The position numbers and the translations under genes are program-made. A stretch of DNA of 64,000 nt from contig JAJZTQ010000010.1 of the NCBI GenBank assembly GCA_021848825.1, forward strand, positions 1 to 64,000, in the 5' to 3' direction. The first letter of the stretch is position 1. The number at the start of each line of letters is the position of its first letter. Shown here piece by piece: positions 6,703-64,000 of the stretch. This stretch comes from Pseudomonadota bacterium (GTDB taxonomy: Bacteria > Pseudomonadota > Gammaproteobacteria > Burkholderiales > JABEVD01). The notes beneath the pieces were generated by a model that made no database searches, was not told where the DNA came from, and saw only the letters and a program-made list of their open reading frames with translations.

Positions 6703-6921
6703 ATGATCAGGTGCCATCTGTCCCGGATGATGGGCGAACGCAAAATGAAAATAGCTGATGTGGCCAGAGAAACTGGCTTACACAGAAATACCGTAACCTT
6801 GCTTTACAATGAGACTGCAAGCCGGGTAGACATGGAGGCGATAGAGAAGCTCTGTCACCTTTTCAATTGCAGTGTCGGTGATCTCTTTGAGTACATTCGG
6901 GAGAAAACTACCAATATATAG
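6703..6921 (+). CDS. Cro/C1-type HTH regulator (72 aa)
   Basis: A compact HTH_XRE domain: MKIADVARETGLHRNTVTLL with a second helical part ending LFNCSVGDLFEYI, typical of short Cro-like regulators. Start taken at 6703 (MIRCHLSRMMGERKMK), though an upstream ATG at 6646 would add 19 residues. It is divergent from the nuclease operon and shares its operator region. Confidence 0.75.
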   Translation: MIRCHLSRMMGERKMKIADVARETGLHRNTVTLLYNETASRVDMEAIEKLCHLFNCSVGDLFEYIREKTTNI

Positions 6922-7015
6922 AGTCTAGGGCTGCGGTACGCTCTTTCCGGTGATTCCTGACGCGACGCTATGCGGACATGCTGCTGCGGACATGCGACGA
7001 ACTGAAGTGAAGATT

Positions 7016-7123
7016 ATGAATATCAATGTTCGACCCATTGAACTACCCCCAAGAAGGATACTAAAGGCTGTCCAGTCACCGATTCAGCGAAAAATAATTA
7101 ATATCAACCTACACCTAAATTAG
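7016..7123 (+). CDS. Possible small ORF (35 aa)
   Basis: The frame begins MNINVRPIELPPRRILKAVQ and ends 6 bp before the next gene, with weak GAAG upstream. The spacing suggests a translated leader or small partner, but there is no homology argument. The preceding 90 bp contain a tandem TGCGGACATGC repeat. Confidence 0.25.
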   Translation: MNINVRPIELPPRRILKAVQSPIQRKIININLHLN

Positions 7124-7129
7124 AGAATA

Positions 7130-7405
7130 ATGAGCGAATTTCAAAAAACACTTATCGAGTTTGCCTGGTACATGAATGCTTTCGGTTTTGCACTCATCAT
7201 AGTTACCCGTTTATTTTCCAATACTAAAGCCAGATGGGCCAGTACCGGCGGACTATTGCTTATAATCGCCATCGGCAATGTCTCCAACTTTTTGGTGGCT
7301 GGCATTAACCCGTCCCAAACACTAGCTTCTATTGTCGGCATGGGTATTTACGGGTCTTTGGGGCTACGCTTTATCGGTAATTGGCTGACCGATAGTGCAA
7401 CCTGA
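7130..7405 (+). CDS. Hypothetical small membrane protein (91 aa)
   Basis: Three hydrophobic segments are visible (FAWYMNAFGFALIIVTRLF, TGGLLLIIAIGNVSNFLVAG and IVGMGIYGSLGLRFIG). No family is recognised. The base composition is lower in GC than that of the core genes, in line with island DNA. Confidence 0.55.
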   Translation: MSEFQKTLIEFAWYMNAFGFALIIVTRLFSNTKARWASTGGLLLIIAIGNVSNFLVAGINPSQTLASIVGMGIYGSLGLRFIGNWLTDSAT

Positions 7406-7547
7406 AGCTGGGCTTTACCCGTCTCATTAGTCACCATGCTACTGAAAATATGGGGGACGTCGAGACGGCCAAAACGATCTTCTTTGCGGCAATGTTCAGA
7501 CGGTCAAAAAATTAAACAGTGTATCCGTAAGCACGACGCGGACCGAC

Positions 7548-8017
7548 GCCCCTTCAGGGGGCTAGGATCGGGGTGGTCTGTGAGCCGGCAGGCGCCGGAG
7601 AATGCCTTGGGGGGAGCCGCAAGGAAATCGTCCGGGCTTGCCCCGGCGATAGGGCGCACCCTTGCGCCCGGTTCTGCAGCGGGGGGCGAAGCCCAGCCGC
7701 CCCGAAAGCGAAGCGCTCGGGAACACCTTTCCGGGATGGCCCGTCCAGGGCCAGGAGTGCGGCAGCGCGACCGAGCATTGAACCGAAGGGAAAATGCGAA
7801 GTCCTGAAAAGGTGTTCCCGAGCGGTACGCGAAGGGGGCGGCCTGGTGTTGGCCTTGACTTGCCCGGATGAGCGCTCTGGCGCGAGAGCCCCGATTTTCC
7901 GTGCTTCCCAGCGGAAAATGGGGCGGTCGGGATCGGCTTTTGACCCTTCCCAACCCATACCTGCAAGCATCCGGCACAGTATGAGGCAAGTATGCTCCAG
8001 GTATGGATTGGGAAGGG
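7548..8017 (+). ncRNA. Candidate large structured RNA or structured element (about 470 nt)
   Basis: No credible gene occupies 7406-8056. This part is packed with stems: GCCCC-TTCA-GGGGGC (7548-7562), CCGGGC/GCCCCGG (7632-7646), GGGCGC/GCGCCC (from 7652), a perfect 17-bp long-range pair CGCTCGGGAACACCTTT (7714-7730) with 7808-7824, CCCCGATTTTCCG pairing with CGGAAAATGGGG (7891-7923), and 20-nt arms with one mismatch at 7944-7963 and 7998-8017. Overlapping frames on both strands have low-complexity translations. The layout recalls large RNAs such as HEARO/omega RNA, but no associated nuclease gene is present and the strand is a guess. Confidence 0.45.
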
Positions 8018-17636: not shown

Positions 17637-18804
17637 TAAATTCGGCATCCTCACGCTCAATTCGATCTCGTCGCTAGGACTGGAGCGATTCCCCTCCTCC
17701 CGCTACGATGTGGGCTCGAAGGTTTCCTCGCCCGATGCGATCCTGCTCCGCTCGTTCAAGATGCACGACATGGCGATCCCCGAATCGGTGATTGCGATCG
17801 GACGCGCCGGGGCAGGCACGAACAACATCCCTGTCAAGAACATGACCGAAAAAGGGATCCCCGTATTCAACACGCCGGGGGCGAACGCCAATGCCGTGAA
17901 GGAGCTCGTTCTCGCCGCGATGCTGATGGGCGCGAGGAATTTGATTCCTGCTATTCAATTTGCCGGGAACCTGAAGGGCGAAGACATCTCGAAACAGGTC
18001 GAGGAAGGAAAGAAAGCCTACGCAGGATTCGAGCTTCCGGGACATACCCTAGGCATCATCGGGCTGGGCGCGATAGGCAGGCTGGTCGCGGATTCCGCGA
18101 TCAGGCTGGGCATGAAAGTCACGGGATATGACCCCGAGATCACGGTCGATGCGGCATGGAGCCTTCCCTCCCAGGTCGTCAGGGCGCACAGCGTTGAAGC
18201 CCTGCTGAAGGCGAGCGACTTCGTCAGCCTGCATGTTCCGCTCGTCGATTCGACCCGGAACCTGATAGACGAGAAGCGCATCGCATCGATGAAGAAAGGA
18301 TCCATCCTGCTCAATTTCGCGAGGGAAGGAATAGTCGACGAAGATGCGGTGATCGATGCACTGGAATCGAAAAAGATCAAATGCTACATCTGCGACTTCC
18401 CGAGCTCTAAGCTGATGGGGAAAGAAGGCGTCGTCGCGCTTCCCCACCTCGGCGCATCCACCAGGGAAGCGGAAGACAACTGCGCCGTGATGGTTTCGGA
18501 CCAGGTGATGGATTATCTTGAAAACGGCAACATCCTGAATTCAGTGAATTTCCCGAACATGGAAATGCCGAGGGAGTCAAGATACCGGGTCGCCATCGTC
18601 AATGCGAATGTGCCCAACATGCTCGGCCAGATATCGACGGCATTCGCGGAAGGCGGCATCAATATCCACAACATGGCCAACAAGTCGAGAGGCGAAATCG
18701 CCTATACCCTGGCCGACATCGATTCACCCGCCCCTTCTTCGGTGATAGAAAAAATCGCATCCATTCCGGGCGTGGTGAGAGTCAGGGACCTGACAGCGAA
18801 ATGA
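17629..18804 (+). CDS. serA: D-3-phosphoglycerate dehydrogenase
   Basis: 391 aa, first step of serine synthesis. NAD-binding motif LGIIGLGAIGRLVADSAIRL, catalytic region LLNFAREGIVDEDAV with the His in LPHLGASTREAEDN, and a C-terminal ACT domain (YRVAIVNANVPNMLGQIS). It is inserted between serC and pheA, giving adjacent serine genes with overlapping ends. Confidence 0.93.
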   Translation: MPDKFGILTLNSISSLGLERFPSSRYDVGSKVSSPDAILLRSFKMHDMAIPESVIAIGRAGAGTNNIPVKNMTEKGIPVFNTPGANANAVKELVLAAMLMGARNLIPAIQFAGNLKGEDISKQVEEGKKAYAGFELPGHTLGIIGLGAIGRLVADSAIRLGMKVTGYDPEITVDAAWSLPSQVVRAHSVEALLKASDFVSLHVPLVDSTRNLIDEKRIASMKKGSILLNFAREGIVDEDAVIDALESKKIKCYICDFPSSKLMGKEGVVALPHLGASTREAEDNCAVMVSDQVMDYLENGNILNSVNFPNMEMPRESRYRVAIVNANVPNMLGQISTAFAEGGINIHNMANKSRGEIAYTLADIDSPAPSSVIEKIASIPGVVRVRDLTAK

Positions 18805-20968: not shown

Positions 20969-21981
20969 TCATCATTATGGACCGTGGCGTCACGGAGGAG
21001 CAAATCGGAAACGTCGTTTCCCGAATCAGGGATTCCGGACTCGACGCCAATGTATCGAGGGGCACTGAGCGCACCGTGATCGGCGCCATCGGGGACGAAC
21101 GGAAGCTGGACCCGGAGATGTTCAATTCCCTGTCCGGCGTCGAATATGCGATGCATATCGTCAAGCAGTACAAGATCGTGTCCCGGGAATCCCATGCCGC
21201 CGATACCGTCATAGACATCAGCGGGGTCCCGCTTGGCGGAAAGCAGATCCAGGTCATCGCAGGCCCCTGCTCGGTCGAAACCCAGGAACAGATGGATGTC
21301 GCAGCGAAACATGTTCTTGACGCAGGATGCAGGCTGATGAGGGGCGGCGCATTCAAGCCCAGGACCAGCCCCTATGCCTTCCAGGGAAAGGGAGTGGAAG
21401 GCCTGGACATGTTCGAGAAGGCGGCTGGGCGGCACGGCCTGCCCATCGTCACGGAACTGATGGATGTCCGGATGCTCGATACCTTCCTCGAGCGCGGCGT
21501 CGACGTCATCCAGATCGGCACGAGGAACATGCAGAACTTCGATCTGCTGAAGGAAGTCGGGAAGGTCAGCACCCCTGTCATCCTGAAGCGCGGCATGTCG
21601 GCGACAGTATCGGAATGGCTGATGTCGGCCGAATACATCGCGGCAGGCGGAAACCACAACATCATCTTCTGCGAGCGGGGCGTCAGAACGTTCGAAAACG
21701 CGTACAGGAACATGCTCGACGTGACGGCCATCCCGGTATTGAAGAAGGAGACCCATCTTCCCGTGATCATCGACCCATCTCATGCCGGCGGAAAGGCCTG
21801 GATGGTCCCCGCGCTTTCCAGGGCTGCGATTGCAGCCGGTGCAGACGGCCTCCTCGTCGAGATGCATCCCAATCCCTGCGAAGCATGGTGCGATGCGGAC
21901 CAGGCATTGAATCCGCAGGAATTGAAGGATCTGATGGGGGTTCTCGGGCAGATCGCGCAAGCGCTGGGCCGGGAAATCTGA
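20965..21981 (+). CDS. aroF: 3-deoxy-7-phosphoheptulonate synthase (type Ib, with N-terminal regulatory domain)
   Basis: 338 aa DAHP synthase, first step of the shikimate pathway. An N-terminal ferredoxin-like domain (~70 aa, MIIIMDRGVTEEQIGNVVSR) precedes the catalytic barrel with VIAGPCSVETQEQ, GGAFKPRTSPYAFQG and VIIDPSHAGGKAW. This is the Thermotoga/Bacillus-type architecture rather than the E. coli AroFGH type. Its 5' end overlaps hisC, so it belongs to the operon. Confidence 0.92.
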   Translation: MIIIMDRGVTEEQIGNVVSRIRDSGLDANVSRGTERTVIGAIGDERKLDPEMFNSLSGVEYAMHIVKQYKIVSRESHAADTVIDISGVPLGGKQIQVIAGPCSVETQEQMDVAAKHVLDAGCRLMRGGAFKPRTSPYAFQGKGVEGLDMFEKAAGRHGLPIVTELMDVRMLDTFLERGVDVIQIGTRNMQNFDLLKEVGKVSTPVILKRGMSATVSEWLMSAEYIAAGGNHNIIFCERGVRTFENAYRNMLDVTAIPVLKKETHLPVIIDPSHAGGKAWMVPALSRAAIAAGADGLLVEMHPNPCEAWCDADQALNPQELKDLMGVLGQIAQALGREI

Positions 21982-43594: not shown

Positions 43595-43665
43595 TGAAGG
43601 GTGAAAGCAGTCCCTGCTTTCACCCCTCCTCCAACTTGCGGGCGCTTTATGCGCCCGATTTTTTT
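43595..43665 (+). ncRNA. Small-RNA-like double hairpin with terminator
   Basis: A perfect 12-bp stem GGGTGAAAGCAG-TCC-CTGCTTTCACCC (43599-43625) is followed by a terminator CGGGCGC-TTTAT-GCGCCCG and seven T (43639-43665). No plus-strand gene lies upstream for the terminator to serve. A weak promoter-like TTGAAA...TATCTT precedes it. It converges on the 34-aa gene below and would overlap its stop. Confidence 0.4.
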
Positions 43666-43768
43666 ACTTGTTCTTCCGCTTGAAGTTTCCGTCGTCAGAC
43701 AGAAGAATCACAGCGGGAAGAATGACATTGGTGCAGAAGAAAAGTATGTACCAGGCATGAACGTCCAT
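43664..43768 (-). CDS. Single-pass membrane microprotein, copy 1 (34 aa)
   Basis: The short frame reads MDVHAWYILFFCTNVILPAV and ends SDDGNFKRKNK: one transmembrane helix with a Cys and a positively charged C-terminus. Minus-strand Shine-Dalgarno AAGGAGC. A paralogue with the same layout lies 210 bp upstream, which argues that both are real. Confidence 0.7.
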   Translation of the reverse strand: MDVHAWYILFFCTNVILPAVILLSDDGNFKRKNK

Positions 43769-43977: not shown

Positions 43978-44082
43978 TTAGCGGCCTTTCCTCTGGTAGT
44001 TGCCGTCATCCAGAAGGAGAATCAGGCCGGGAATCACGAAAGTGGTGCAGAAAAAGATGATGTACCAGGTATGGACGTCCAT
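43978..44082 (-). CDS. Single-pass membrane microprotein, copy 2 (34 aa)
   Basis: Reads MDVHTWYIIFFCTTFVIPGL and ends DDGNYQRKGR. It shares the MDVHxWYIxFFCT start, the Pro in the helix and the DDGN-(Y/F) tail with copy 1, at identical length. Shine-Dalgarno AGGAGA. It lies 168 bp downstream of the thioredoxin gene at the end of the dsr cluster; a subunit or assembly factor of a membrane redox complex is a guess. Confidence 0.75.
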   Translation of the reverse strand: MDVHTWYIIFFCTTFVIPGLILLLDDGNYQRKGR

Positions 44083-44250
44083 TTCATTCTCCTTTTGATT
44101 GGGTTATGCAGCCTTTCAACATCATAACCATGATGTCAGTATGGTTTATAGGGCATAAAAATCGGCGCCGCGCGCCTTCATTCACCATACTCCCATAATG
44201 GTTATTTAAGTATGCGCCTTGAACGGATTTAAATCAAGCGAAGATTGAGT

Positions 44251-55016: not shown

Positions 55017-56306
55017 CTAGGCTTGCTTGGCTTTGATTTTTGCGACTTCCTCGTCCCAGCCGTCAGTCCTGACATAAGGATTCATCCTGGGGCTGGAAAC
55101 CATGTTGGGATCGACATCGATTCCCATCGCGTCGAGGAAATTCACCAGGCCGATACGCTCGATCATCTCGCCAGTGCGCTCGTGCTCCAGCGCATTTTCA
55201 GCGAAGAAGTCGATGATGCGCTGACCGAGATCGACCAGCTCTTCCCTGTCCTCATCCGTCTCGAGCTTCATGAACGGCACAACGACGGTTCCCATCAGGT
55301 CGCCGATCTTGAGCGTACGCTTGCCGCCCACCAGTATCGTGGCGCCCTTGTCTTTTCCGGGCGAAAGCGCGCCGGTCATGACATTGATGCAGTGCATGCA
55401 GCGCACGCAGTCGTGGTTGTCGATTTCGACGGCATGCGTGTCGTTCACCGCCACGCTGGAGATGTGCTCGCCCTTGTTGACATCCTTTATTTCCTTCAAC
55501 CGCACGGCCTTGGTCGGGCAACGCGCAACCACGTCATTGACGAGTTCATTCATGCCGTGTTTTTCGAACCATTTGCGAGCCAAGGCCTCATCCGTCCGGA
55601 TGTTGTCGCGCCATGTTCCGATCACCGCCATGTCGGCACGCTGGATCGAGTTCATGCAGTCGTTGGGGCAACCCGAAAACTTGAACTTGAACTTGTATGG
55701 AAGGGATGGACGATGGATGTCATCGACAAAAGTATTGAGCACGACCCGATGAGCAGCAGCCTCGTCGTAGCAGGACTGCTCGCAGCGAGCAGCACCGACG
55801 CATGACATGGAGGTGCGGACTGCAGGGCCTGCGCCGCCCAGATCGAACCCGAGCTCGTTGATTTCGTCGAATGCGCCCTGAACATTATCGGTCGTGGCGC
55901 CCTGGAACATGATGTCGCCTGATTGACCGTGGAATGCGATCAGGCCCGAGCCGTGACGCTCCCAGATGTCGCACATCTTCCTGAGGACATCGGTGTTGTA
56001 ATGCATGCCTGCAGGAGGCTGCACCCTGAGGGTGTGAAATTCTGCAGCGTCCTTGTAGATGGGCTCGCCGTTGTCGTCCTTGAGCTCGGTGAAGCGGGGA
56101 ATGATGCCGCCGCCGTATCCGAAAACGCCAACCGTGCCGCCTTTCCAGTAACCCTTCTTGGTTTGGTAAGACGTCTCAAGCTGACCCAGGAGGTCAACAG
56201 CCATGTCCTTATCCTGAGCCAAACGTTTCAAGCCCGTCACAAAGCTGGGCCACGGGCCTTTCTCGAGTTCGTCGAGATTCGGCGTGTCATGCAGTTTCTT
56301 AGCCAT
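55017..56306 (-). CDS. dsrA: Reverse dissimilatory sulfite reductase alpha subunit
   Basis: 429 aa. Cys at about 169, 175, 179 (SCVGAARCEQSC) and 213, 217 (SGCPNDC) bind the 4Fe-4S/sirohaem; ferredoxin domain CVRCMHC near residue 300. First gene of dsrABEFHCMKLJOPN. The Shine-Dalgarno is GTAGGAGGA. No dsrR/dsrS are adjacent. It diverges from the orf71/cas6-like operon. Confidence 0.98.
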   Translation of the reverse strand: MAKKLHDTPNLDELEKGPWPSFVTGLKRLAQDKDMAVDLLGQLETSYQTKKGYWKGGTVGVFGYGGGIIPRFTELKDDNGEPIYKDAAEFHTLRVQPPAGMHYNTDVLRKMCDIWERHGSGLIAFHGQSGDIMFQGATTDNVQGAFDEINELGFDLGGAGPAVRTSMSCVGAARCEQSCYDEAAAHRVVLNTFVDDIHRPSLPYKFKFKFSGCPNDCMNSIQRADMAVIGTWRDNIRTDEALARKWFEKHGMNELVNDVVARCPTKAVRLKEIKDVNKGEHISSVAVNDTHAVEIDNHDCVRCMHCINVMTGALSPGKDKGATILVGGKRTLKIGDLMGTVVVPFMKLETDEDREELVDLGQRIIDFFAENALEHERTGEMIERIGLVNFLDAMGIDVDPNMVSSPRMNPYVRTDGWDEEVAKIKAKQA

Positions 56307-56430
56307 GATTCCTCCTACAAGTAAAATTGTTTGGAAAAGTCCTTTCGAACCGTCGGCGATCTTGGTCGCCTGTATTCTAGACGCTCCGCCTGGCGTATAT
56401 TAGACAAGCCTGATAGTTCTATGTAAACTA

Positions 56431-56498
56431 CCCTTCCGGGTTATGAATCATCCCCCCTATAGGCTATAGACGGTTTAGGCTTGCGTCGCGCTCAATAT
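56431..56498 (+). promoter_or_regulatory. Twin CCC-N5-GGY-TAT promoter, copy A (before orf71/cas6-like operon; dsrA divergent)
   Basis: Two co-oriented sites CCCTTCCGGGTTAT (56431-56444) and CCCCTATAGGCTAT (56454-56467), 23 bp apart. The second extends to TATAGAC; 21 bp after it lies CAATAT (56493-56498), about 57 bp before the orf71 ATG. The same architecture precedes tusA-dsrE2 and the tauE operon. It may also affect dsrA, 125 bp away. Confidence 0.75.
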
Positions 56499-56555
56499 TG
56501 CATAATATTGATATAGCAGATTTCAGCAAATTATTATCAGTTAACCATCCTAATA

Positions 56556-56771
56556 ATGACGCAAATCAACGAAATTGAGAAGTTCAGGATACCACTTGGC
56601 GGGCAGGAAATCGAATTGCAGCAGATCGATTTTGCAGAAGGCGGCATGAGCATGCTGCGCATTCGCATCAGGGAAGGCAAGCGCTTCACCATTTTCGATA
56701 TCGACCCTGTTACAGCCGGGCAATGGGCAGATGCGATGAAGAACTGGGCGGAGTCCGTCAATGGCAAGTGA
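56556..56771 (+). CDS. Hypothetical 71-aa protein heading the cas6-like sulfur operon
   Basis: Small soluble beta-rich protein (FRIPLGGQEIELQQIDFAEG; TIFDIDPVTAGQWADAMKNW). No family is recognised. Its stop overlaps the cas6-like start by 11 bp, so the two are coupled. Confidence 0.65.
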   Translation: MTQINEIEKFRIPLGGQEIELQQIDFAEGGMSMLRIRIREGKRFTIFDIDPVTAGQWADAMKNWAESVNGK

Positions 56772-57354
56772 AATCACCGACATCGTTTTCGATCTCGAAG
56801 GGAATTTCCTGCCGGAGGGATATGGGGCTCTGCTCTGGAAGGAATTGGTCCTCGCCCTTCCCTGGCTTGAAAACCAGAATCCTGCCGGCATCCTTCCGAT
56901 AAAAGGGGCATCGAGCGGAAAAGGACTTCTTCTGCCGAGACGCGCCAAGCTGGCATTGCGCATCCCCGCAGAATTTTTCAGAAATGCGCTCGACCTCGAG
57001 GGAAAGACCATCGAGGTAGGCGAAAGCACGCTCAAAATCGGCCGGGGAAAAGAAAGACGGATCGAGGCCTACCCGACCCTGAATTCCCATTTCGTCGTCA
57101 GCGAAATGGACGAGACCGATTTTCTGCACGATGCTGAAGAAAAGATGGGGGAGCTGGGGATTGCCTGCAAATTGATCTGCGGAAAGCACCAGGCTCTGAA
57201 ATATGGCACCGAAACCCTTTCCGGATACAGCCTCGTCGCCTATGACCTGAAGCCGCCAGGATCGATCAGGCTGCAGCATTCCGGGCTTGGGTCCCATCGC
57301 CACATCGGATGCGGCTTCTTCGTCCCGCACAAGACGATAGCAGGACTTGAATGA
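56761..57354 (+). CDS. Cas6/Cmx6-like RAMP-fold protein (197 aa), no CRISPR
   Basis: Resembles the Cas6 type known as Cmx6 (type I-MYXAN): a beta-strand start DIVFDLEGNFLPEGYGALLW, GILPIKGASSGKG, LKIGRGKERRIEAYPTL, and the C-terminal Gly-rich loop LGSHRHIGCGFFVPH. Such proteins process CRISPR RNA. Here there is no repeat array or cas gene; the neighbours are sulfur-relay genes. The identity rests on pattern recognition. An RNA-binding role in sulfur-gene control or tRNA thiolation is speculative. Confidence 0.65.
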   Translation: MASEITDIVFDLEGNFLPEGYGALLWKELVLALPWLENQNPAGILPIKGASSGKGLLLPRRAKLALRIPAEFFRNALDLEGKTIEVGESTLKIGRGKERRIEAYPTLNSHFVVSEMDETDFLHDAEEKMGELGIACKLICGKHQALKYGTETLSGYSLVAYDLKPPGSIRLQHSGLGSHRHIGCGFFVPHKTIAGLE

Positions 57355-57380
57355 TTTTTGACTGTTTGGAGGATAAGAAA

Positions 57381-57710
57381 ATGACATATCATATAAATGG
57401 AGTTGACGTTGAGACCGATGACGATGGCTATCTGCTCGAAGCCGATTTCAGCAAGGAAGCCGTCGAAGTCATCGCAGCGGCCGAAGGCATCGCGCTTACC
57501 GAAAACCACTGGAAAATCGTCGACTACATGCGGGAAGAATATCGCGAAAATGGCCATACCCCGAATTTCAGGAACATGCTGAAGGGTGTTCAGGAATTCT
57601 GGAGTGACGCAGACAGCAAGGCGCTTTACGACCTCTTCCCGATGGGTCCCGCAAAGCAGGGGGCGAAGATCGCCGGACTGCCCCAGCCCTATGGAAAAGG
57701 AGGCTACTGA
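57381..57710 (+). CDS. rspA: DsrC-family protein without cysteines (RspA type)
   Basis: 109 aa from MTYHINGVDVETDDDGYLLE (GGAGGA Shine-Dalgarno). The DsrC/TusE fold ends FPMGPAKQGAKIAGLPQPYG, where both C-terminal cysteines of true DsrC are replaced. There is no Cys at all. DsrC homologues lacking both are called RspA and are thought to be regulatory. The canonical DsrC is 4.8 kb away. Confidence 0.85.
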   Translation: MTYHINGVDVETDDDGYLLEADFSKEAVEVIAAAEGIALTENHWKIVDYMREEYRENGHTPNFRNMLKGVQEFWSDADSKALYDLFPMGPAKQGAKIAGLPQPYGKGGY

Positions 57711-57719
57711 GAAAACATC

Positions 57720-58199
57720 ATGACCAAGTTGAATGCGAATGTCGTGCTCGACATGAAAGGGGTCACCTGCCCTGGCCCCATACTCGGCGCGAAGAAGATG
57801 GTGGACGAACTGGAGAGCGGACAGATCCTGCTTCTCATCTCGGATTGCCCGGGTACACCGGACGATCTCTTCGCCTGGGCGAGGCAGACCGACAACCAGA
57901 TTCTCGAAAGCGCGAAATTGCCAGGCGGCGGAACAGGATATTACATCCTCAAGGGAAAGGGGCATGAATTCAAGGCCAACGTATTGCTCGACATACGCGG
58001 CGTGCTCTGCCCCGGCCCCATCGTTGAAGCCAAGAAGCTCCTCAACGGGATGCAGACAGGCGAAATCCTGAAGCTGACCAGCAACTGCCCCGGCATAAGC
58101 TCGGACATAGAAGGATGGGCCAAGGTCACCGGTGAAACGATACTGGAGTCGATCGAGATCGCGCCGGGCGAATACGATTTCTACATCCGGAAGGGATGA
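57720..58199 (+). CDS. Tandem TusA-TusA sulfur carrier (159 aa)
   Basis: Two complete TusA domains: residues 1-80 (LDMKGVTCPGPILGAKKMVD) and 84-159 (LDIRGVLCPGPIVEAKKLLN), each with the Cys-Pro-X-Pro sulfur-carrying Cys. Single-domain TusA is usual (one is at 61551). The fusion could carry two persulfides or bridge partners. Starts 9 bp after rspA. Confidence 0.9.
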   Translation: MTKLNANVVLDMKGVTCPGPILGAKKMVDELESGQILLLISDCPGTPDDLFAWARQTDNQILESAKLPGGGTGYYILKGKGHEFKANVLLDIRGVLCPGPIVEAKKLLNGMQTGEILKLTSNCPGISSDIEGWAKVTGETILESIEIAPGEYDFYIRKG

Positions 58200-58792
58200 T
58201 GAGGGTAAAGAGCCGCTGGTTCAAGGCAGAACGCGAGAAAACGCCTGAAGAAATCGCAGGCGCCATGGCTTTCATCGTCTGGAAGATCGCACAGAACGGC
58301 CTCAAGAACCTGAGAAGCGCCGACTACGAGATCGAGGCAGGTCCCCGGTATTTCGACTACACCGAGGAATTCCTGATCTTCCTCGTCCAGGTCGCCGACA
58401 GGATCGCGTTTGACAAGCTGGATCAGGATGCGAGGACCGCTTTCACGACGGAACTCGCCCTGAGGGTCGCGGGAAATTTCGCCGAAAACAAGGGAGACAT
58501 CCTCGGGCTTTCCCATGCTTCATGCAAAAGCGAATTCATAGACCGCTACAACGAGAGGACCAACGTCTACGCCGAGTGCGGATTCAACGACGAAGGCCCG
58601 GATTTCGCCTTCTATCGCTATCTCGGACATTGTCTGCTCGAATTCTGCGATGAGCGGGACAGAAGCTGGATCGTCGACAGGATCATGCAGATCGAGGCGC
58701 CTGAAGGCGTCTCTACCGTGAGCCGCGCCATGAAGGGGCTGCTGGATACGGAACCTTCCCACAGGCTGGGGTCGGGAATAGGACCGGACTGA
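58196..58792 (+). CDS. Hypothetical protein (198 aa)
   Basis: Mostly helical soluble protein (EEIAGAMAFIVWKIAQNGLK; FIDRYNERTNVYAECGFND; GHCLLEFCDERDRSW) with four cysteines. No family is recognised. Overlaps the TusA fusion (ATGA) and meets the dioxygenase start at 58792, so it is firmly in the operon. Confidence 0.65.
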   Translation: MMRVKSRWFKAEREKTPEEIAGAMAFIVWKIAQNGLKNLRSADYEIEAGPRYFDYTEEFLIFLVQVADRIAFDKLDQDARTAFTTELALRVAGNFAENKGDILGLSHASCKSEFIDRYNERTNVYAECGFNDEGPDFAFYRYLGHCLLEFCDERDRSWIVDRIMQIEAPEGVSTVSRAMKGLLDTEPSHRLGSGIGPD

Positions 58793-59619
58793 TGTTCCAG
58801 GATCATGGCGCTTACCTGAAATGGCGCGAAAAGAAGTTCGACACCCATCCCGGATCAATCGACGAACTGATCGTCGAAGTCGACGATCTCGAAAATCTCA
58901 GCATGGCTGAACATGAAGCTATCATGGACCGCATCGCCAGAGCCAACATGGCGATCTATGTGAGCCGCAATCCGCTGCCTGACTTGAAGCGTTTCGCAAG
59001 GCAATTCGGCCTGGAAAACCTGGATGCCAACTGGCTTTCCGGCGAAGACGGTATTTCCAGGATAGAGGTCACGGAAGGCGGGAAGGGTTACATTCCGTAT
59101 ACCAACAAGCCGATAAAATGGCATACCGACGGTTATTACAACCCACCCGAGAGAAAAATCCGCGCGATGCTGCTGCATTGCGCTCAAAGCGCTGCTGACG
59201 GGGGGGAAAACAGGCTGATGGATCACGAAATGCTCTATTGCCTCTTGCGCGATCAGAACCCTGGCTACATCGAAGCTTTGTCAAGGCCGGACGCCATGAA
59301 GATCCCGGAAAGGACGGACGAGAACGAAGTAGCGAGGAAGGAAGAAACCGGTCCCGTGTTTTCCTTCGACGAACAGGATCATCTTCACATGCGCTACACG
59401 GCGAGAACGCGGTCCATAGAATGGAAGCAAGACCCGCTCACGCTCGCTGCAGTATCCGCACTCGAATCCATCCTCGCCTTCCCTTCCCCCTACATCTTCA
59501 GAACGAGGCTGGAGTCCGGCATGGGCCTCATCTGCAACAACGTGCTTCACGACAGGTCGGGCTTCGAGGGAAGCGACCGGCTTCTCTTCCGCGCAAGGTA
59601 TTACGACAGAATCAGATAA
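58792..59619 (+). CDS. TauD/TfdA-family Fe(II)/2-oxoglutarate dioxygenase
   Basis: 275 aa. Iron site in KWHTDGYY (His-X-Asp) and distal His in NVLHDRSGF; Arg in LLFRARYYD for 2-oxoglutarate. TauD releases sulfite from taurine, and a substrate such as an organosulfonate would fit the sulfur context, but no transporter is present. Last gene of the operon. Confidence 0.85.
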   Translation: MFQDHGAYLKWREKKFDTHPGSIDELIVEVDDLENLSMAEHEAIMDRIARANMAIYVSRNPLPDLKRFARQFGLENLDANWLSGEDGISRIEVTEGGKGYIPYTNKPIKWHTDGYYNPPERKIRAMLLHCAQSAADGGENRLMDHEMLYCLLRDQNPGYIEALSRPDAMKIPERTDENEVARKEETGPVFSFDEQDHLHMRYTARTRSIEWKQDPLTLAAVSALESILAFPSPYIFRTRLESGMGLICNNVLHDRSGFEGSDRLLFRARYYDRIR

Positions 59620-59735
59620 AAACCCGCCATACCGGTGCCTGGTCTTGAATTATCAGGTGATAATTCAAGACCAGGCACCGCTTTTTTCAAGGCCAGGCAC
59701 CGCTTTTTTTGACAGAATCAAATAAAAAACCCGTC
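59605..59735. repeat. Hairpin element flanked by 25-bp direct repeats
   Basis: A perfect inverted repeat with 23-bp arms (59633-59655 / 59658-59680; starts CGGTGCCTGGTCTTGAATT) is followed by CTTTTTT and a second partial copy of the right arm (59688-59710). GACAGAATCA-(A/G)-ATAAAA and following bases occur at 59605 (inside the tauD end) and again at 59711. It terminates the operon and resembles a REP-like mobile palindrome. Confidence 0.65.
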
Positions 59736-59753
59736 ACCTTTTCAGGCGACGGG
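59724..59753 (-). terminator. Terminator of the FadL-type gene
   Basis: On the minus strand CCCGTC...GACGGG forms the stem and is followed by TTTTTT (59729-59724). Confidence 0.85.
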
Positions 59754-59778
59754 CAGTCGGTGCAGGTACTTCCCAGAC

Positions 59779-61035
59779 TTACCAGCCGTAGGAAATGCCC
59801 AGCGAATCTTCCGACAGGGTGTTGTTTGCAATTCCACCGCCATAAGGCAAGGGGATGGAGTTCGGCGTGCCGTCAACAGTATTCCTGAATGCATGCATGT
59901 AGAACACGGAGATCTCGGACTTGTCCGCAAGCTTCCATGTCGCGCCCAGGGTCGCATTGTCCCTCACGACGCCAGGAGCCAGGATATTGAAGAAAGTCTC
60001 CGTCGAGGGATAAGGCACATTGTTGTGCGTCCATCCCGCCCTCAAGGTCAGGTTGGAATCGTAGTCATGCGAAATGCCGAGCTTGTAGACGGTCAGATTG
60101 CCCCAACCGAATCCAGCGCCTGCATTCGAACCAAGCGGATTGCCGAGCACGGTCATGTTGGCGATAGGGTTCGATATGGAAGGAACGTCGCCATACATGA
60201 TCCTCTGGATGTCGAATGCGACGGTGGTAGTGGGCATCGCCTTGACGGAAATGCCGACGCCGTAGGTTGCAGGAATATCGAACGAGCCCTGCTCTGCGAA
60301 GAGGCCGCTGTACTTGCTGAGCTTGCCCATCCTGGTTTTGGTCTGGTAAGTCGCGCCCAGCGTTACATCCTGGGAAACCTGGCCAATCCAGCCGATATGC
60401 AGACCATAACCTGTCGAGGAATCCGTTCCATTATTGCTGACAGCCGAAGGAGTTTGTGAAGCTCCGGCAAATCCCTGGATACCCTGTGCGGAGAAGCGCT
60501 GGTAGGCAAGGTTCAATGCAACACCGATAGAATTGTTCGCATTGAGCTTCTTCGACCAGGTGGGGGCGATGAAGAGCTGTTCGAGATTGACGCCGCCGTT
60601 TCCGACGCCGCCATAAGCGGCAAAGGGATTGTTGGCATAATCAGTGTTCATCCCGCCGTTGCCGTAGATGGAAACGCCGAGCGAGCTGTCTGAGCTGATC
60701 ATCCTGTTGTAGCCGAAATCCGGGATCAGGAAGTATTTCTTGTCGTTGCCATCGTAACTCCCGTTCGCGCCAGGCGCACCTGCGCCGATGATCTGGGCGC
60801 TCCTGTCAGGAATAAAGAGTTCAGCACCGAAATCGATTCTGTTTCCAACCATCACCATGCCGGCAGGATTGGTGGCTGCAGCGAGAGAATCCTGCGGAAG
60901 CGCGATGCCGACGCCCCCCATGCCTTCCGACTTTACGCCGTATCCGTGCGAAAAATAGCCATTGGTTGCGAAGGCCGCGGGACTGACCAGGCCGCCTGCA
61001 ATCATCATAGAAACCAGCAACTTCCTCTTTTTCAT
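59779..61035 (-). CDS. OmpP1/FadL/TodX-family outer membrane transporter
   Basis: 418 aa. Signal peptide (MKKRKLLVSMMIAGGLVSPA), then NGYFSHGYGVKSEGMGGVG and ATNPAGM, the FadL N-terminal signature, and a C-terminal strand ending SLGISYGW. Imports hydrophobic compounds; in a sulfur oxidiser uptake of hydrophobic sulfur or organics is possible (inference). Confidence 0.9.
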   Translation of the reverse strand: MKKRKLLVSMMIAGGLVSPAAFATNGYFSHGYGVKSEGMGGVGIALPQDSLAAATNPAGMVMVGNRIDFGAELFIPDRSAQIIGAGAPGANGSYDGNDKKYFLIPDFGYNRMISSDSSLGVSIYGNGGMNTDYANNPFAAYGGVGNGGVNLEQLFIAPTWSKKLNANNSIGVALNLAYQRFSAQGIQGFAGASQTPSAVSNNGTDSSTGYGLHIGWIGQVSQDVTLGATYQTKTRMGKLSKYSGLFAEQGSFDIPATYGVGISVKAMPTTTVAFDIQRIMYGDVPSISNPIANMTVLGNPLGSNAGAGFGWGNLTVYKLGISHDYDSNLTLRAGWTHNNVPYPSTETFFNILAPGVVRDNATLGATWKLADKSEISVFYMHAFRNTVDGTPNSIPLPYGGGIANNTLSEDSLGISYGW

Positions 61036-61068
61036 GGTGCCCCTCTCTACTAGTAATAAAAGTACGAC

Positions 61069-61536
61069 TCAAACGAACAGGCAGATATCCGTGTCACCGG
61101 CGAATTCCATGAAGGTTGCCGCACCGCCGAATTCTATTCCGTCGATGAAATCTTTCTTGTCGAATTCGAAAAGATCGACGGTCATCTGGCAGGCGACGAA
61201 TTTCACGTCCGCTTCCTGGCAGAGGTTGCGAAGCTCTTCGAGCGAAGCAACCCCCTTCTTTTTCAGTTTGTCCTTCATCATCATCGTCGCCATGGATTCC
61301 ATGCCCGGCAATACCTGGACGAGAACCGGCATGGGAACAGGCATCGGCATGGCAGGATTGGCAAGCGGGCTGATCTTCACGTCGGAAAGATCCTTCTTCA
61401 GGAGTTGCAGTCCGTAGAAAGTGAAAAAGATCTGCACGTCGTAGCCAAGGGCTGCAGCCGTGGAGCCGAGGATGAAAGGCGGATAGGCCATGTCCAGCGT
61501 GCCCTTGGTTGCGATGATCGCCATTTTCTTGGTCAT
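61069..61536 (-). CDS. dsrE2: DsrE2-type sulfurtransferase (DsrE/F/H-like)
   Basis: 155 aa. Begins MTKKMAIIATKGTLDMAYPP; conserved cysteines near CQEADVKFVACQM; a Met/Pro-rich loop (NPAMPMPVPMPVLVQ) that may be membrane-associated. DsrE2 pairs with TusA in many sulfur oxidisers to route sulfane sulfur to the Dsr pathway. Start is 14 bp after tusA. Confidence 0.88.
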   Translation of the reverse strand: MTKKMAIIATKGTLDMAYPPFILGSTAAALGYDVQIFFTFYGLQLLKKDLSDVKISPLANPAMPMPVPMPVLVQVLPGMESMATMMMKDKLKKKGVASLEELRNLCQEADVKFVACQMTVDLFEFDKKDFIDGIEFGGAATFMEFAGDTDICLFV

Positions 61537-61550
61537 GAGAATATCCCCTG

Positions 61551-61778
61551 TTACTTCTTCTTCATGAAAAATGTGTATTCGCCGTTTGCCTCGGATTGTT
61601 CAAGCAACTCGTTGCCGGTCTGCTTGGCGAAAGCCTGCATGTCCTTGACGGATCCGCAGTCAGTCGACACGACCTTGAGCACTTCTCCCGAAGCCATGTC
61701 GGCAAGCGACTTCTTCGTCTTCAAAATGGGCAGAGGGCAGTTGAGGCCGCGAGCGTCGAGTTCTTTCTGAAAATTCAT
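61551..61778 (-). CDS. tusA: TusA-family sulfur carrier protein
   Basis: 75 aa from MNFQKELDARGLNCPLPILK (Cys-Pro-X-Pro). Shine-Dalgarno CGGAG upstream of the chosen start. Partner of DsrE2; sulfur donor to DsrEFH. Confidence 0.93.
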   Translation of the reverse strand: MNFQKELDARGLNCPLPILKTKKSLADMASGEVLKVVSTDCGSVKDMQAFAKQTGNELLEQSEANGEYTFFMKKK

Positions 61779-61842
61779 GTGTGTCTCCGTTACGTTGATA
61801 AACCCATGTTTCATTGGAATGAAACATGCTAACAATATAATG

Positions 61843-61911
61843 CTATTAGGCGGAATTTGCCATTCACGCGTCTATAGCCGAATCGGGTAATGCAGCCATA
61901 ACCCTCAAGGG
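61843..61911 (-). promoter_or_regulatory. Twin CCC-N5-GGY-TAT promoter, copy B (tusA-dsrE2)
   Basis: Minus strand: CCCTTGAGGGTTAT (61911-61898) and CCCGATTCGGCTAT (61887-61874), 24 bp apart; the second extends to TATAGAC, then 21 bp, then TAATAG (61848-61843), about 64 bp before the tusA ATG. Confidence 0.8.
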
Positions 61912-61971
61912 GGATAAGGTTATAGGCGAGTTGTCGAAATCCCCTTTTCCTGTTTGCCGCCGCCCTATTCA

Positions 61972-62385
61972 TCAATGCTTCCCTGATATCAATCCGGAAG
62001 CAGCGAGAACCAGGATGCCGATCTCGAGTGCGCAGATGGCAATATAGACCCAGTCCTTCCTTTTCGCATAGATAGGCATGACAGCCATGATGCAGAATAT
62101 AGAGCATCCTGAAAGAATCGCAATGCCGATGAAACTGGCGAGATCGCCGTTTCCGAGCATTTCTATCCATCCCCAGCCCTTCGGCATCCCTGTCACCTTC
62201 AGGAATTCCTCTGCAGGCTTGTTCCAGACCTGGGGCAACTCGGAAAGCGGAATCCTGGCAGGCAGAATGCCGAATATATAGGCAATGAATGTGCCGATCA
62301 GGCACAGGAAGCCGGCGAGGGTGCTCCAGTGGAGCCAGTCCGCATAGCGCAGCTGCTCCGATTGCTGCATTTCCTTCATGTCCAT
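61972..62385 (-). CDS. Membrane protein linked to the TauE exporter (137 aa)
   Basis: Start placed at MDMKEMQQSEQLRYADWLHW (62385), overlapping the tauE stop by 10 bp. Three to four hydrophobic segments (STLAGFLCLIGTFIAYIFGI; SFIGIAILSGCSIFCIMAVM; YIAICALEIGILVLAASGLI). DUF1634-like proteins often accompany TauE-family exporters; the match is only positional. Confidence 0.65.
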   Translation of the reverse strand: MDMKEMQQSEQLRYADWLHWSTLAGFLCLIGTFIAYIFGILPARIPLSELPQVWNKPAEEFLKVTGMPKGWGWIEMLGNGDLASFIGIAILSGCSIFCIMAVMPIYAKRKDWVYIAICALEIGILVLAASGLISGKH

Positions 62386-63293
62386 ACCCCGAGCCCTTTC
62401 AGCAACGCCCCGACGCCTGATACGAAAAGCATGGTGATGACGAGACGCCTGATCACGGATGCATTGAGCACGGACAAAAGATGAGCGCCTATCCTGGCGC
62501 CTATCATCATGCCCACAACGGAAGGCACTGCGATGATCGGCAAGATCGCGCCATTGTCCAGGTAATACCACGTCGCCGAAGAGCTCGCCGTGGTCAGGAT
62601 CAGGCTGGATGTCCCTGCAGCGACCTTGAGCGGTGCGCCCATCAGAAGATTGAGAACGGGGACGTTGGCCCAGCCTGCGCCCACGCCGAAAAGCCCGCCC
62701 AGGAAGCCGATCACGAGAAACATCGCCATGCCCAGAGGCGTGCGATGAACATGCCAGTTCACATCGTCGCCGGAAACCGCGTCCCTGAAAACCCCTTGTA
62801 TTCGCAGCGCGCTGGAAAGGGAATCAGCCGCAGGCACATGCGGAAACTCCGACTTCTTGGCCGCAGCCATCAGCGCGACGATGCCGAGTATGGTGAGCCC
62901 GAGGGCGATCTGGACGACATTGGAAGGCAATGCGAGCCCCACCATCGCGCCGCCTATTGCGCTGATGGATGCCCCGAATGCGAGCGGCATGGCAAGTCTG
63001 AGATTGGCAAGCCCCCCCTTCAACAGCGACGGACCCGCAGCAAGTGAACTCGCGAGCGCGACAAGCAGCCCTGCCCCTCGAACGAAATCGAGGTGGAAGG
63101 GAAAGAAGCTTCCCACGATGGGCACGAACAGCACCCCTCCTCCGACGCCCGCAGGAACGGCGACAATGCCCAGAAAGAAACAGACCACGAAAAGCGCGAG
63201 CGGCCATATCCACCAGGTATCAGGCGAGGCTGAAGCCGCTGCAAATGCCGGATGAGCGATGAAAAGCAGTGTGAAAAAAAGCAGGCGCTTCAT
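62376..63293 (-). CDS. TauE/SafE-family sulfite/sulfonate exporter
   Basis: 305 aa with about eight to nine helices after a signal-like start (MKRLLFFTLLFIAHPAFA). GVGGGVLFVPIV, GFLGGLFGVGAGWANVPVLN are the paired family motifs. In this organism it probably exports sulfite made by rDsrAB (inference). Confidence 0.9.
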   Translation of the reverse strand: MKRLLFFTLLFIAHPAFAAASASPDTWWIWPLALFVVCFFLGIVAVPAGVGGGVLFVPIVGSFFPFHLDFVRGAGLLVALASSLAAGPSLLKGGLANLRLAMPLAFGASISAIGGAMVGLALPSNVVQIALGLTILGIVALMAAAKKSEFPHVPAADSLSSALRIQGVFRDAVSGDDVNWHVHRTPLGMAMFLVIGFLGGLFGVGAGWANVPVLNLLMGAPLKVAAGTSSLILTTASSSATWYYLDNGAILPIIAVPSVVGMMIGARIGAHLLSVLNASVIRRLVITMLFVSGVGALLKGLGVWT

Positions 63294-63424
63294 GCCTTCG
63301 CCCGTCCGTCGGACAACCAGACCTTGTCTTCCGCGGGATGGACAGGCAGGGAACAGGTAATATCGCCGATTTCTTTTGCTGGCTCCGAAACGATCAGATC
63401 ATGGAGCGGGATGGATGATGACAT
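63290..63424 (-). CDS. Possible small ORF before tauE (44 aa)
   Basis: The frame runs MSSSIPLHDLIVSEPAKEIG to LSDGRAKA and its TGA overlaps the tauE ATG, suggesting coupling. It is the first frame after promoter copy C. No Shine-Dalgarno is obvious and no family is recognised. Confidence 0.45.
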   Translation of the reverse strand: MSSSIPLHDLIVSEPAKEIGDITCSLPVHPAEDKVWLSDGRAKA

Positions 63425-63476
63425 GATTTAAAAACGATCCTTCCATTTCAGCCGACCTTGGCCCATGGAAACCTTG

Positions 63477-63544
63477 CTATTAGGCGCAATACCGGGTCAC
63501 CATGTCTATAACCGCATCGGGGGGGTGGATATAACCCATATGGG
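63477..63544 (-). promoter_or_regulatory. Twin CCC-N5-GGY-TAT promoter, copy C (tauE operon)
   Basis: Minus strand: CCCATATGGGTTAT (63544-63531) and CCCGATGCGGTTAT (63521-63508), 23 bp apart; the second extends to TATAGAC, then 21 bp, then TAATAG (63482-63477), about 52 bp before the 44-aa ORF. The opposite strand leads to the GAF-protein gene. Confidence 0.8.
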
Positions 63545-63600: not shown

Positions 63601-64000
63601 ATGAGCGCAGCAGTGAAGGAATCGGTTCCAGAATCTTACAGCGACGAATGCACGACGCTGATGGAAAGTTTTCTGGGCACGATCGTGAAGATGACCGGTG
63701 CCATTGCAGGCGCTGTGCGCGTCCCATCCATTGATGGGCAGGAGATGCATCTTGTCGGATCCTTCGGTCTTCCCGAGGAAGTCAGCTGCCAGGAACGCAT
63801 CGTCGACTGGGGATGCGGCACCTGCGGAGTCTCTTTGCGCGAAGTGGAAATCCGTTCAGCAGGCGTCGGCGCATGTGCAAAGCGCTCGGGAATAGGCTTT
63901 TTCGGCAAGGAATGCCGAAGCGTGGTCGCGGTTCCCCTCACCAGCCGCGGCAAGATGATCGGCATCTTCAACCTCTTTTTCACCTCCCCCCAGGAAATCG
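63601..64000 (+). CDS. GAF-domain protein, probable sensor histidine kinase N-terminus (partial)
   Basis: 133 residues visible, open at the window edge. A GAF domain (GAIAGAVRVPSIDGQEMHLV; SVVAVPLTSRGKMIGIFNLF) as in NarX/NreB-type kinases of the LuxR-regulator class. It is cysteine-rich: Cys17 and then SCQE, WGCGTCG, GACAK and KECRS within about 50 residues, which may bind an Fe-S cluster or sense thiols. It is divergent from the tauE operon. Kinase identity is inferred. Confidence 0.65.
   Translation, partial: MSAAVKESVPESYSDECTTLMESFLGTIVKMTGAIAGAVRVPSIDGQEMHLVGSFGLPEEVSCQERIVDWGCGTCGVSLREVEIRSAGVGACAKRSGIGFFGKECRSVVAVPLTSRGKMIGIFNLFFTSPQEI

Follow-up and report, generated by a model that had tools for sequence, protein, structure and literature searches.

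Twin sites in front of sulfur genes

The window analysed here comprises bases 1-64000 of contig C37 (73,594 bp), which belongs to a genome of 55 contigs and 2.74 Mb that is 99.7% complete. Three promoter regions in front of sulfur genes each carry two co-oriented copies of the pattern CCCN5GGYTAT (a twin site, or pair), and a gene for a GAF histidine kinase begins near the end of the window. The first pair lies between dsrA (55017..56306, minus strand; TIGR02064 over its cut-off at C37:55020-56276), which is the first gene of the reverse dsr operon, and a divergent plus-strand operon that starts with orf71 (DUF6967; 56556..56771, Pfam PF22295) and continues with a gene for a Cas6-like protein (56761..57354; PF09559, E 2.5e-50; TIGR02807, 125.1 bits against a cut-off of 98.85) and a second DsrC-like gene (57351..57710, Pfam PF04358). 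The second precedes tusA (61551..61778, minus), a candidate whose name and start codon we chose from the translation only, and dsrE2 (61069..61536, minus; NCBIfam NF047629, 288.1 bits against a cut-off of 210). The third faces a 44-codon open reading frame (ORF; 63290..63424, minus) and tauE (62376..63293, minus; TauE/SafE exporter family, Pfam PF01925). Sat, DsrE2, AprA, DsrA and the YfcE-type phosphoesterase discussed below owe their names to matches over curated cut-offs. The names SoeA-like, QmoA/QmoB-like and SQR-like were chosen by context and resemblance to a family; for these proteins, the PhsA, HdrA2 and SQR type III models of NCBIfam match best, all below their cut-offs.

The first-pass annotation of this DNA had described six site copies arranged as three co-oriented pairs, and exact matching confirms their coordinates, orientations and sequences. 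Before orf71, the distal copy CCCTTCCGGGTTAT (56431..56444, plus), which is kept in all nine members of the genus, is followed by a proximal copy with TATAGAC (56454..56471, plus), found also at the orthologous promoters, and by a -10-like CAATAT (56493..56498, plus). The distal copy, proximal copy with TATAGAC and -10-like TAATAG are at 61898..61911, 61870..61887 and 61843..61848 before tusA-dsrE2, and at 63531..63544, 63504..63521 and 63477..63482 in the tauE promoter, all on the minus strand. These last two promoters also match the promoter pattern, defined as a proximal site, 21 bp and TAAT, which is stricter than the relaxed pair used below. The CCC-to-CCC spacing of 23, 24 and 23 bp and the exact 21 bp from TATAGAC to CAATAT, TAATAG and TAATAG stand as first described. 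The pairs face their genes as claimed, but the distances to the first codon, given earlier as 84-96 bp, measure 88, 95 and 83 bp for orf71, tusA-dsrE2 and the tauE promoter. In the latter case the 83 bp reach the 44-codon ORF, and the ATG of tauE itself is 214 bp away.

There are seven exact matches to the single-site pattern in the window, whereas dinucleotide shuffles average 0.54 and not one in 100 reaches seven. Six of the matches form the three pairs. Genome-wide there are exactly three strict pairs, defined as two co-oriented copies, and all are at sulfur genes. The reversed pattern, which served as the control, gives none, and only about 0.0012-0.0016 strict pairs are expected per genome from the density of single sites. 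Single sites number 31 versus 27 in the control and are thus noise, in agreement with the earlier view that the pairs carry the weight.

The seventh match in the window (44192..44205, plus) had been noted as a lone one, and indeed no second copy exists in the surrounding sequence. It was considered as a regulon site, its distal sequence CCCATAATGGTTAT recurring in the pairs at sat of genomes G004, G005 and G006. It was left out because there is no second site and the location differs from sat, and on present evidence it is not part of the regulon. The match is upstream of a small ORF (43978-44082, minus), which is followed by a similar one (43664-43768, minus); both are membrane-like, 34 residues long and of the form MDVHxWYI... 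A search for extra targets in the same genome with up to three mismatches was likewise abandoned, as it gave eight matches, three of them the known promoters, versus seven in the control.

The dsr operon itself enters the candidate regulon through the opposite strand of the first pair. Read toward dsrA, the distal copy of orf71 becomes a proximal operator, ATAACCC-N4-GGGTAGTTTAC, with its two middle bases variable, and is followed after 20 bp by TAAT in 9/9 genus members. In the window, this -10-like element reads TAATATA (56396..56402, minus). By hand count, the distance from the operator centre to TAAT is 33 on the dsrA side versus 34 in the other promoters. Judged by its sequence, the twin site serves both dsrA and orf71, and this conserved arrangement is what brings in the dsr operon.

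An adjacent histidine kinase and response regulator

The kinase gene occupies 63601..64000 on the plus strand and runs on to C37:64716. It encodes 371 amino acids from the chosen start, with Pfam matches to GAF_2, HisKA_3 (PF07730) and HATPase_c (PF02518). A LuxR-type regulator had been expected beside it and is present just past the window end, where a NarL/LuxR-type response regulator of 222 amino acids (C37:64713-65381, plus) combines a receiver domain (Response_reg, PF00072, E 2.2e-25) with a GerE domain (PF00196, E 5.4e-19). The two genes overlap by 4 bp. NarL/FixJ-type features are therefore present in the form of a receiver-GerE regulator and an adjacent HisKA_3-HATPase_c kinase. The NCBIfam equivalog models score below their cut-offs, with 210.9 against 250 for NarL, 176.5 against 553 for NarQ and 136.8 against 578 for NarX. 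There is no Pfam match to a HAMP, nitrate-sensor or other membrane-type domain in the kinase, for which transmembrane helices were not separately predicted, and none to an AAA+ domain in the regulator (P0002). The regulator adjoining the operators is GerE-type and not ArsR-type, which is a statement about the adjacent gene only, ArsR-type genes elsewhere in the genome not having been searched for.

Of the 46 kinases labelled motif-positive, 45 keep Cys72 (P0001 numbering), 38 keep Cys75 and 46 keep Cys92; all 14 motif-negative kinases have the three residues. Cys105 is kept in 22 of the 46 and in all 14. The motif-positive label was assigned manually and also covers a few loci that have no pair (L095, L096 and L150 among them), which makes these figures a conservation count and not a contrast. 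As far as a residue pattern can indicate, the C-x2-C...C...C cluster would fit a sensor based on thiols or on Fe-S. A predicted structure of the kinase orthologue at locus L077 has a mean predicted local distance difference test (pLDDT) score of 82, and the best 50 of its 1143 matches in a fold search are kinase cores, light-sensor kinases and a few other signalling proteins. A sequence search with the GAF part gave no match. The kinase match contains in-frame stops in G001:C220, G003:C25 and G008:C130, where an assembly error, an alignment end effect or a real loss is possible.

Architecture of the predicted operators

A two-block weight matrix was trained solely on promoters of the window's genus, and a pair is called at a score of at least 20. 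The operator grammar was read from 85 distinct promoter places scoring at least 25, which remain after merging 92 promoter rows because overlapping spacings double-counted some places. Copies are 22 bp apart (CCC to CCC) in four places, 23 bp in 24, 24 bp in 21 and 25 bp in 36. TATAGAC is exact in 70 places. At +21 there is TAAT in 61 places and CAAT, as before orf71, in eight, giving (T/C)AAT in 69/85, and TAAT is at +20 in six more. The best-kept positions are CCC-N5-GG, a distal TTAT, a proximal YTATAGAC and ATTnCGCYTAAT at the -10 region. Each operator is palindromic (ACCC-N4-GGGT), with the right half GGGTTAT best kept, and in the aligned genus promoters the core and the spacing are kept while the flanks change. 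Assuming that the T of TAAT is position -12, the operator centres would be at about -45.5 and -67.5 to -70.5. The heptamer recognized by NarL is TACYYMT. Its 7-2-7 arrangement is found in none of the 85 places, and a single heptamer in seven.

Distribution in the genus, order and class

The genus sample consists of nine genomes, which are all of the family members examined and belong to one genus. Every one of them has between one and four relaxed pairs (control 0), located at orthologous places, namely dsrA/orf71, tusA-dsrE2, the kinase-side intergenic region and sat. The orf71, tusA-dsrE2 and kinase-side promoters can be aligned. At the level of the order, 300 genomes were sampled evenly out of a larger group, and 14 of them contain the relaxed pair (the nine of the genus, four of family f25 and one of f38) versus one for the control. 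All five matches outside the genus adjoin orthologues of the kinase or the regulator. The gene that they face is sat in G089, SoeA-like in G224, SQR-like in G282 and the phosphoesterase gene in G032 and G159.

There are 24 sites with the promoter pattern in 15 of the 300 genomes, from families f1, f25, f38 and f49, and none with the reversed control. The genes behind them are tusA-dsrE2 (seven), SoeA-like (six), phosphoesterase (five), tauE (three), sat (one), SQR-like (one) and transposase-like (one). Thus, 18 of 24 precede tusA-dsrE2, SoeA-like, tauE, sat or SQR-like genes. The phosphoesterase is linked to sulfur only by context, a QmoA-like gene being next in three cases and a rhodanese-like gene in G032; in G008 the contig ends there. 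The pairs are conserved at orthologous promoters and are not scattered over unrelated genes, and these two outcomes support the candidate regulon that the first-pass annotation had proposed. That proposal now appears too narrow. The sequence evidence supports the dsr operon, sat and the SoeA-like, qmo-like and SQR-like genes as further members, and a kinase that tracks dsrA across the order. The scan of the class returned two of 369 genomes, one being the window's own. The other, G477, was rejected, since its sequence has no GG core and looks like chance.

In genome G002, a gene that we take to be transposase-like lies between the promoter and tusA-dsrE2. The insertion (locus L066, about 6741-7865, G002:C32) is directly behind the twin-site promoter, and tusA starts about 2.3 kb past the site.

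The kinase profile matches 55 of the 300 order genomes at 369.5 bits or more, after which scores fall to 301.2 and below; the cut-off of >360 bits was chosen after this gap was seen. The promoter pattern is present in 15 of the 55 kinase-positive genomes versus none of the other 245. There are 61 genomes with dsrA over its cut-off and three more with a partial or split gene (G022, G166, G262), and all 55 kinase genomes are among these 64 (52 over the cut-off, three partial). The nine dsrA genomes without the kinase at its cut-off include two with weaker matches, G074 (301 bits) and G272 (285 bits). The co-occurrence has a Fisher p of about 4e-51, a value that ignores relatedness and uses the kinase cut-off set after the gap was seen. 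The locations of kinase and dsrA were compared in 48 of the 55 genomes; they share a contig in 34 and are within 30 kb in 28.

Kinase loci in relatives

The best 80 of 208 relatives were fetched by kinase homology. Six of these loci are from genus members whose promoters trained the matrix, and 74 are from outside. A pair scoring at least 20 is present at 53 of the 80 loci (47 of the 74) and at none in reversed sequence. In all 53 positive loci, one pair is divergent from the kinase and within 900 bp of it. Since the loci were chosen by their kinase, this is a test of adjacency and not of specificity, which is tested by the order-wide pattern scans. Positive loci include Gallionella, Sideroxydans, Nitrosomonadales, Casimicrobiaceae, Rhodoferax and Ferrovum. 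The driven neighbour varies (SoeA-like, phosphoesterase, sat, tauE or tusA), and the kinase, the regulator and the site stay together.

By BLAST tag, the 92 promoter rows, a set biased toward the kinase, are divided among phosphoesterase (35), SoeA-like (11), tusA (nine), orf71 (nine), rhodanese-like (seven), tauE (four), sat (one) and untagged rows (16). The untagged rows comprise five at sat that face away from it, eight before SQR-like genes, two before a transporter-like protein and one insertion sequence (IS) case. A further twin site before an SQR-like gene near the kinase and regulator is seen in loci of Gallionellaceae type (L125, L139, L144, L147, L151, L156 and others). In two Gallionella-type loci, L127 and L146, the largest ORF behind the twin site encodes a 463-amino acid membrane-type protein, presumably resembling YeiH-type transporters and excluded under that name from the counts.

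The tauE and sat promoters

There is some variety behind the kinase-side promoter even among relatives. A SoeA-like gene is located there in G002, G003, G224 and G265, and tauE in G004 and G005, as in the window's genome, which has no close SoeA-like homologue (best matches 28% identity). By eye, the translation of the 44-codon ORF is like the N-terminus of the SoeA-like protein. This ORF is probably the remnant, left by a deletion, of a SoeA-like gene that stood between the promoter and tauE. Given the SoeA-like gene in relatives and the remnant followed by tauE here, tauE seems to have taken over a sulfite-oxidation promoter.

A fourth, weaker pair was found with the weight matrix before sat, on contig C15 at about 18312-18353, and C15:18312 is one of the genomic single sites. 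The same contig carries aprA at 21126, and Apr and Sat are thus retained on C15 in a genome without a close SoeA-like gene. The sat pair points away from sat in five genomes (G000 and G003-G006). G001 and G008 each have one twin site in the interval that separates sat from a divergent SoeA-like gene, and the site faces the SoeA-like gene.

A candidate regulon for reverse-Dsr sulfur oxidation

From the observed sequences, spacing, conservation, target genes and co-occurrence, we infer with a probability of roughly 0.8 that the NarL/LuxR-type regulator binds the twin operators and activates a regulon for sulfur oxidation by reverse Dsr, as NarL does at ogt. The protein that recognizes the paired sites would be the response regulator whose gene adjoins that of the GAF kinase (63601). 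In its phosphorylated form it would bind each palindrome as a dimer, the proximal one about 46 bp and the distal one about 68-71 bp upstream of the predicted start site. With a fixed 21 bp between TATAGAC and a TAATR -10 element, the bound regulator would recruit RNA polymerase to promoters that have no good -35. The regulon would comprise the dsr operon (through the orf71 operator in reverse), the orf71-cas6-like-dsrC-tusA operon, tusA-dsrE2 and sat-apr, and, depending on the species, SoeA-like, phosphoesterase-qmo-like, SQR-like and tauE genes. Through the cysteine cluster of its GAF domain, the soluble kinase probably responds to the redox state or to an intermediate of sulfur metabolism in the cytoplasm, either sulfane sulfur or sulfite.

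At ogt, NarL acts from tandem operators at -44.5 and -77.5, and an engineered -67.5 position is also active (PMC7419079); the tandem operators predicted here at -45.5 and -67.5 to -70.5 are similar. Among solved structures, the regulator is also closest in sequence to NarL (1a04, E 1.6e-44). However, its operator would be ACCC-N4-GGGT, and that of NarL is described as 7-2-7 (PMC7419079). The kinase differs from NarX and NarQ in having a GAF domain and no Pfam match to HAMP or a nitrate sensor, and the targets are sulfur genes. The candidate system would belong to a known kind, the NarL-type two-component regulons, with an operator of its own and an important set of targets whose control the available portions of the cited papers do not explain.

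Several observations weigh against this assignment. The exact promoter pattern is absent from 40 of the 55 kinase-positive genomes, though the recognition helices are similar, and at 27 of the 80 kinase loci no pair reaches a score of 20. These negatives comprise eight Rhodocyclaceae/Rhodocyclales, three Ferrovum/Ferrovaceae, two Sterolibacterium, one each of Desulfobacillus, Sulfuritalea and Zoogloeaceae, and 11 of unspecific affiliation. Two of them cover less than 900 bp upstream of the kinase, four (L091, L092, L094, L097) have a weak look-alike 611-664 bp upstream with scores of 7.8-18.5, and several have recognition helices like those of positive loci. A single recognition-helix change behind the motif-negative kinases was rejected as an explanation, as L103 and L132 carry the negative-type helix yet have the motif. 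In addition, the genus sat sites face away from sat, with no TAAT at the expected place on the sat side, and the best 50 of the 1143 Protein Data Bank (PDB) matches in the fold search hold no information on the ligand. The remaining two points concern which protein binds. The kinase and dsrA occur together so tightly that co-occurrence alone cannot name the binding protein, and G007 (96% complete) gives no match to the kinase despite having dsrA and the orf71 pair. Perhaps, then, the sites are genuine operators of a sulfur regulon that are bound by another regulator of dsr genomes, to which the kinase-regulator pair is merely a neighbour. We consider this quite unlikely, as lineages differ in the driven gene but share the position of the site beside the kinase. 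The 53 of 53 divergent pairs within 900 bp argue the same way, albeit in a set fetched by kinase homology, and so do the five out-of-genus matches, which come from a whole-genome scan and also adjoin the kinase or regulator.

The direction of control is a separate question. The regulator might bind and repress, with phosphorylation or its loss lifting repression; SoxR and sHdrR, which are known regulators of sulfur oxidation, are described as repressors, and a proximal site so near the -10 could block polymerase. The lack of a good -35, the fixed 21 bp from operator to -10 and the tandem positions predicted near -45 and -70, like those of the NarL-activated ogt promoter, make repression unlikely. 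The conserved bases could also be divided differently: an alternative sigma factor might use TATAGAC as its -35 and TAATR as its -10, which would leave only CCC/GGG as an operator. TATAGAC is indeed exact in most places, and the conservation of ATTnCGCYTAAT extends further than that of a usual -10. However, 21 bp is long for a sigma-factor spacer, and the dsrA-facing copy, with GTTTAC in place of TATAGAC, keeps the geometry in 9/9 genus members, which renders this division very unlikely. It is highly improbable that the pairs are products of chance or functionless leftovers of relatedness. The genus members are closely related and promoters near conserved genes drift slowly, but spacing and core persist while flanks change, other families show pairs with different driven genes, and the reversed controls are near zero.

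Activation by the NarL/LuxR-type regulator is thus the reading that we prefer, and it can be extended at odds that we put slightly below even. A dedicated two-component switch may accompany reverse Dsr across the whole, probably betaproteobacterial, order, its soluble kinase sensing a cytoplasmic sulfur intermediate through the cysteine cluster as a persulfide or Fe-S sensor. Its regulator, on twin and partly bidirectional operators, might switch on every step by which sulfane sulfur is converted, via DsrAB and sulfite, to sulfate, including in the Gallionellaceae, a family known for iron oxidisers.

Relation to known regulators of sulfur oxidation

Two-component control of sulfur oxidation has been described in Acidithiobacillus, where TspS/TspR and RsrS/RsrR control the Sox system and the S4I thiosulfate pathway (PMC6335251). 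A title cited there terms the Sox system regulator sigma54-dependent. The present system resembles these pairs in kind, and it differs from TspR in that the regulator has receiver and GerE domains with no AAA+ match and goes with reverse Dsr. SoxR and sHdrR of Hyphomicrobium also respond to sulfane sulfur and control sulfur oxidation, with sox and sHdr genes as their targets, and cysteine-based sensing is reported for SoxR (PMC12423496, PMC10451225). In contrast to the regulator considered here, they are one-component ArsR-type repressors, and the targets that the available portions of these papers name do not include Dsr. Transcripts of dsr and sox increase on thiosulfate in Sideroxydans lithotrophicus ES-1, with no dsr regulator named in the available portion of the source (one of PMC6397845, PMC8788666 and PMC10734462). 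Little is said to be known about how sulfur oxidisers sense inorganic sulfur compounds (among PMC6335251, PMC12423496 and PMC10451225). No description of this regulon, kinase or operator was found in the titles and abstract openings of the open-licence PMC papers listed on sulfur regulation.

Reverse Dsr is a main route of bacterial sulfur oxidation, and the regulators named in the available portions of the cited literature act on the Sox, S4I or sHdr pathways. For the control of reverse Dsr, the findings put forward a kinase and a regulator as candidates, together with a list of targets and an exact grammar of the operator, and they point to a previously undescribed master switch of the pathway. 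The twin site can also serve as a sequence tag for assigning genes of unclear role, such as that of the Cas6-like protein, to sulfur oxidation.

The Cas6-family gene shares its operon, divergent from dsrA, with genes for DUF6967, DsrC, two TusA domains and a TauD-like protein. The order orf71-cas6-like-dsrC beside dsrA is also found in two loci (L096, L150) from Ferrovaceae metagenome-assembled genomes.

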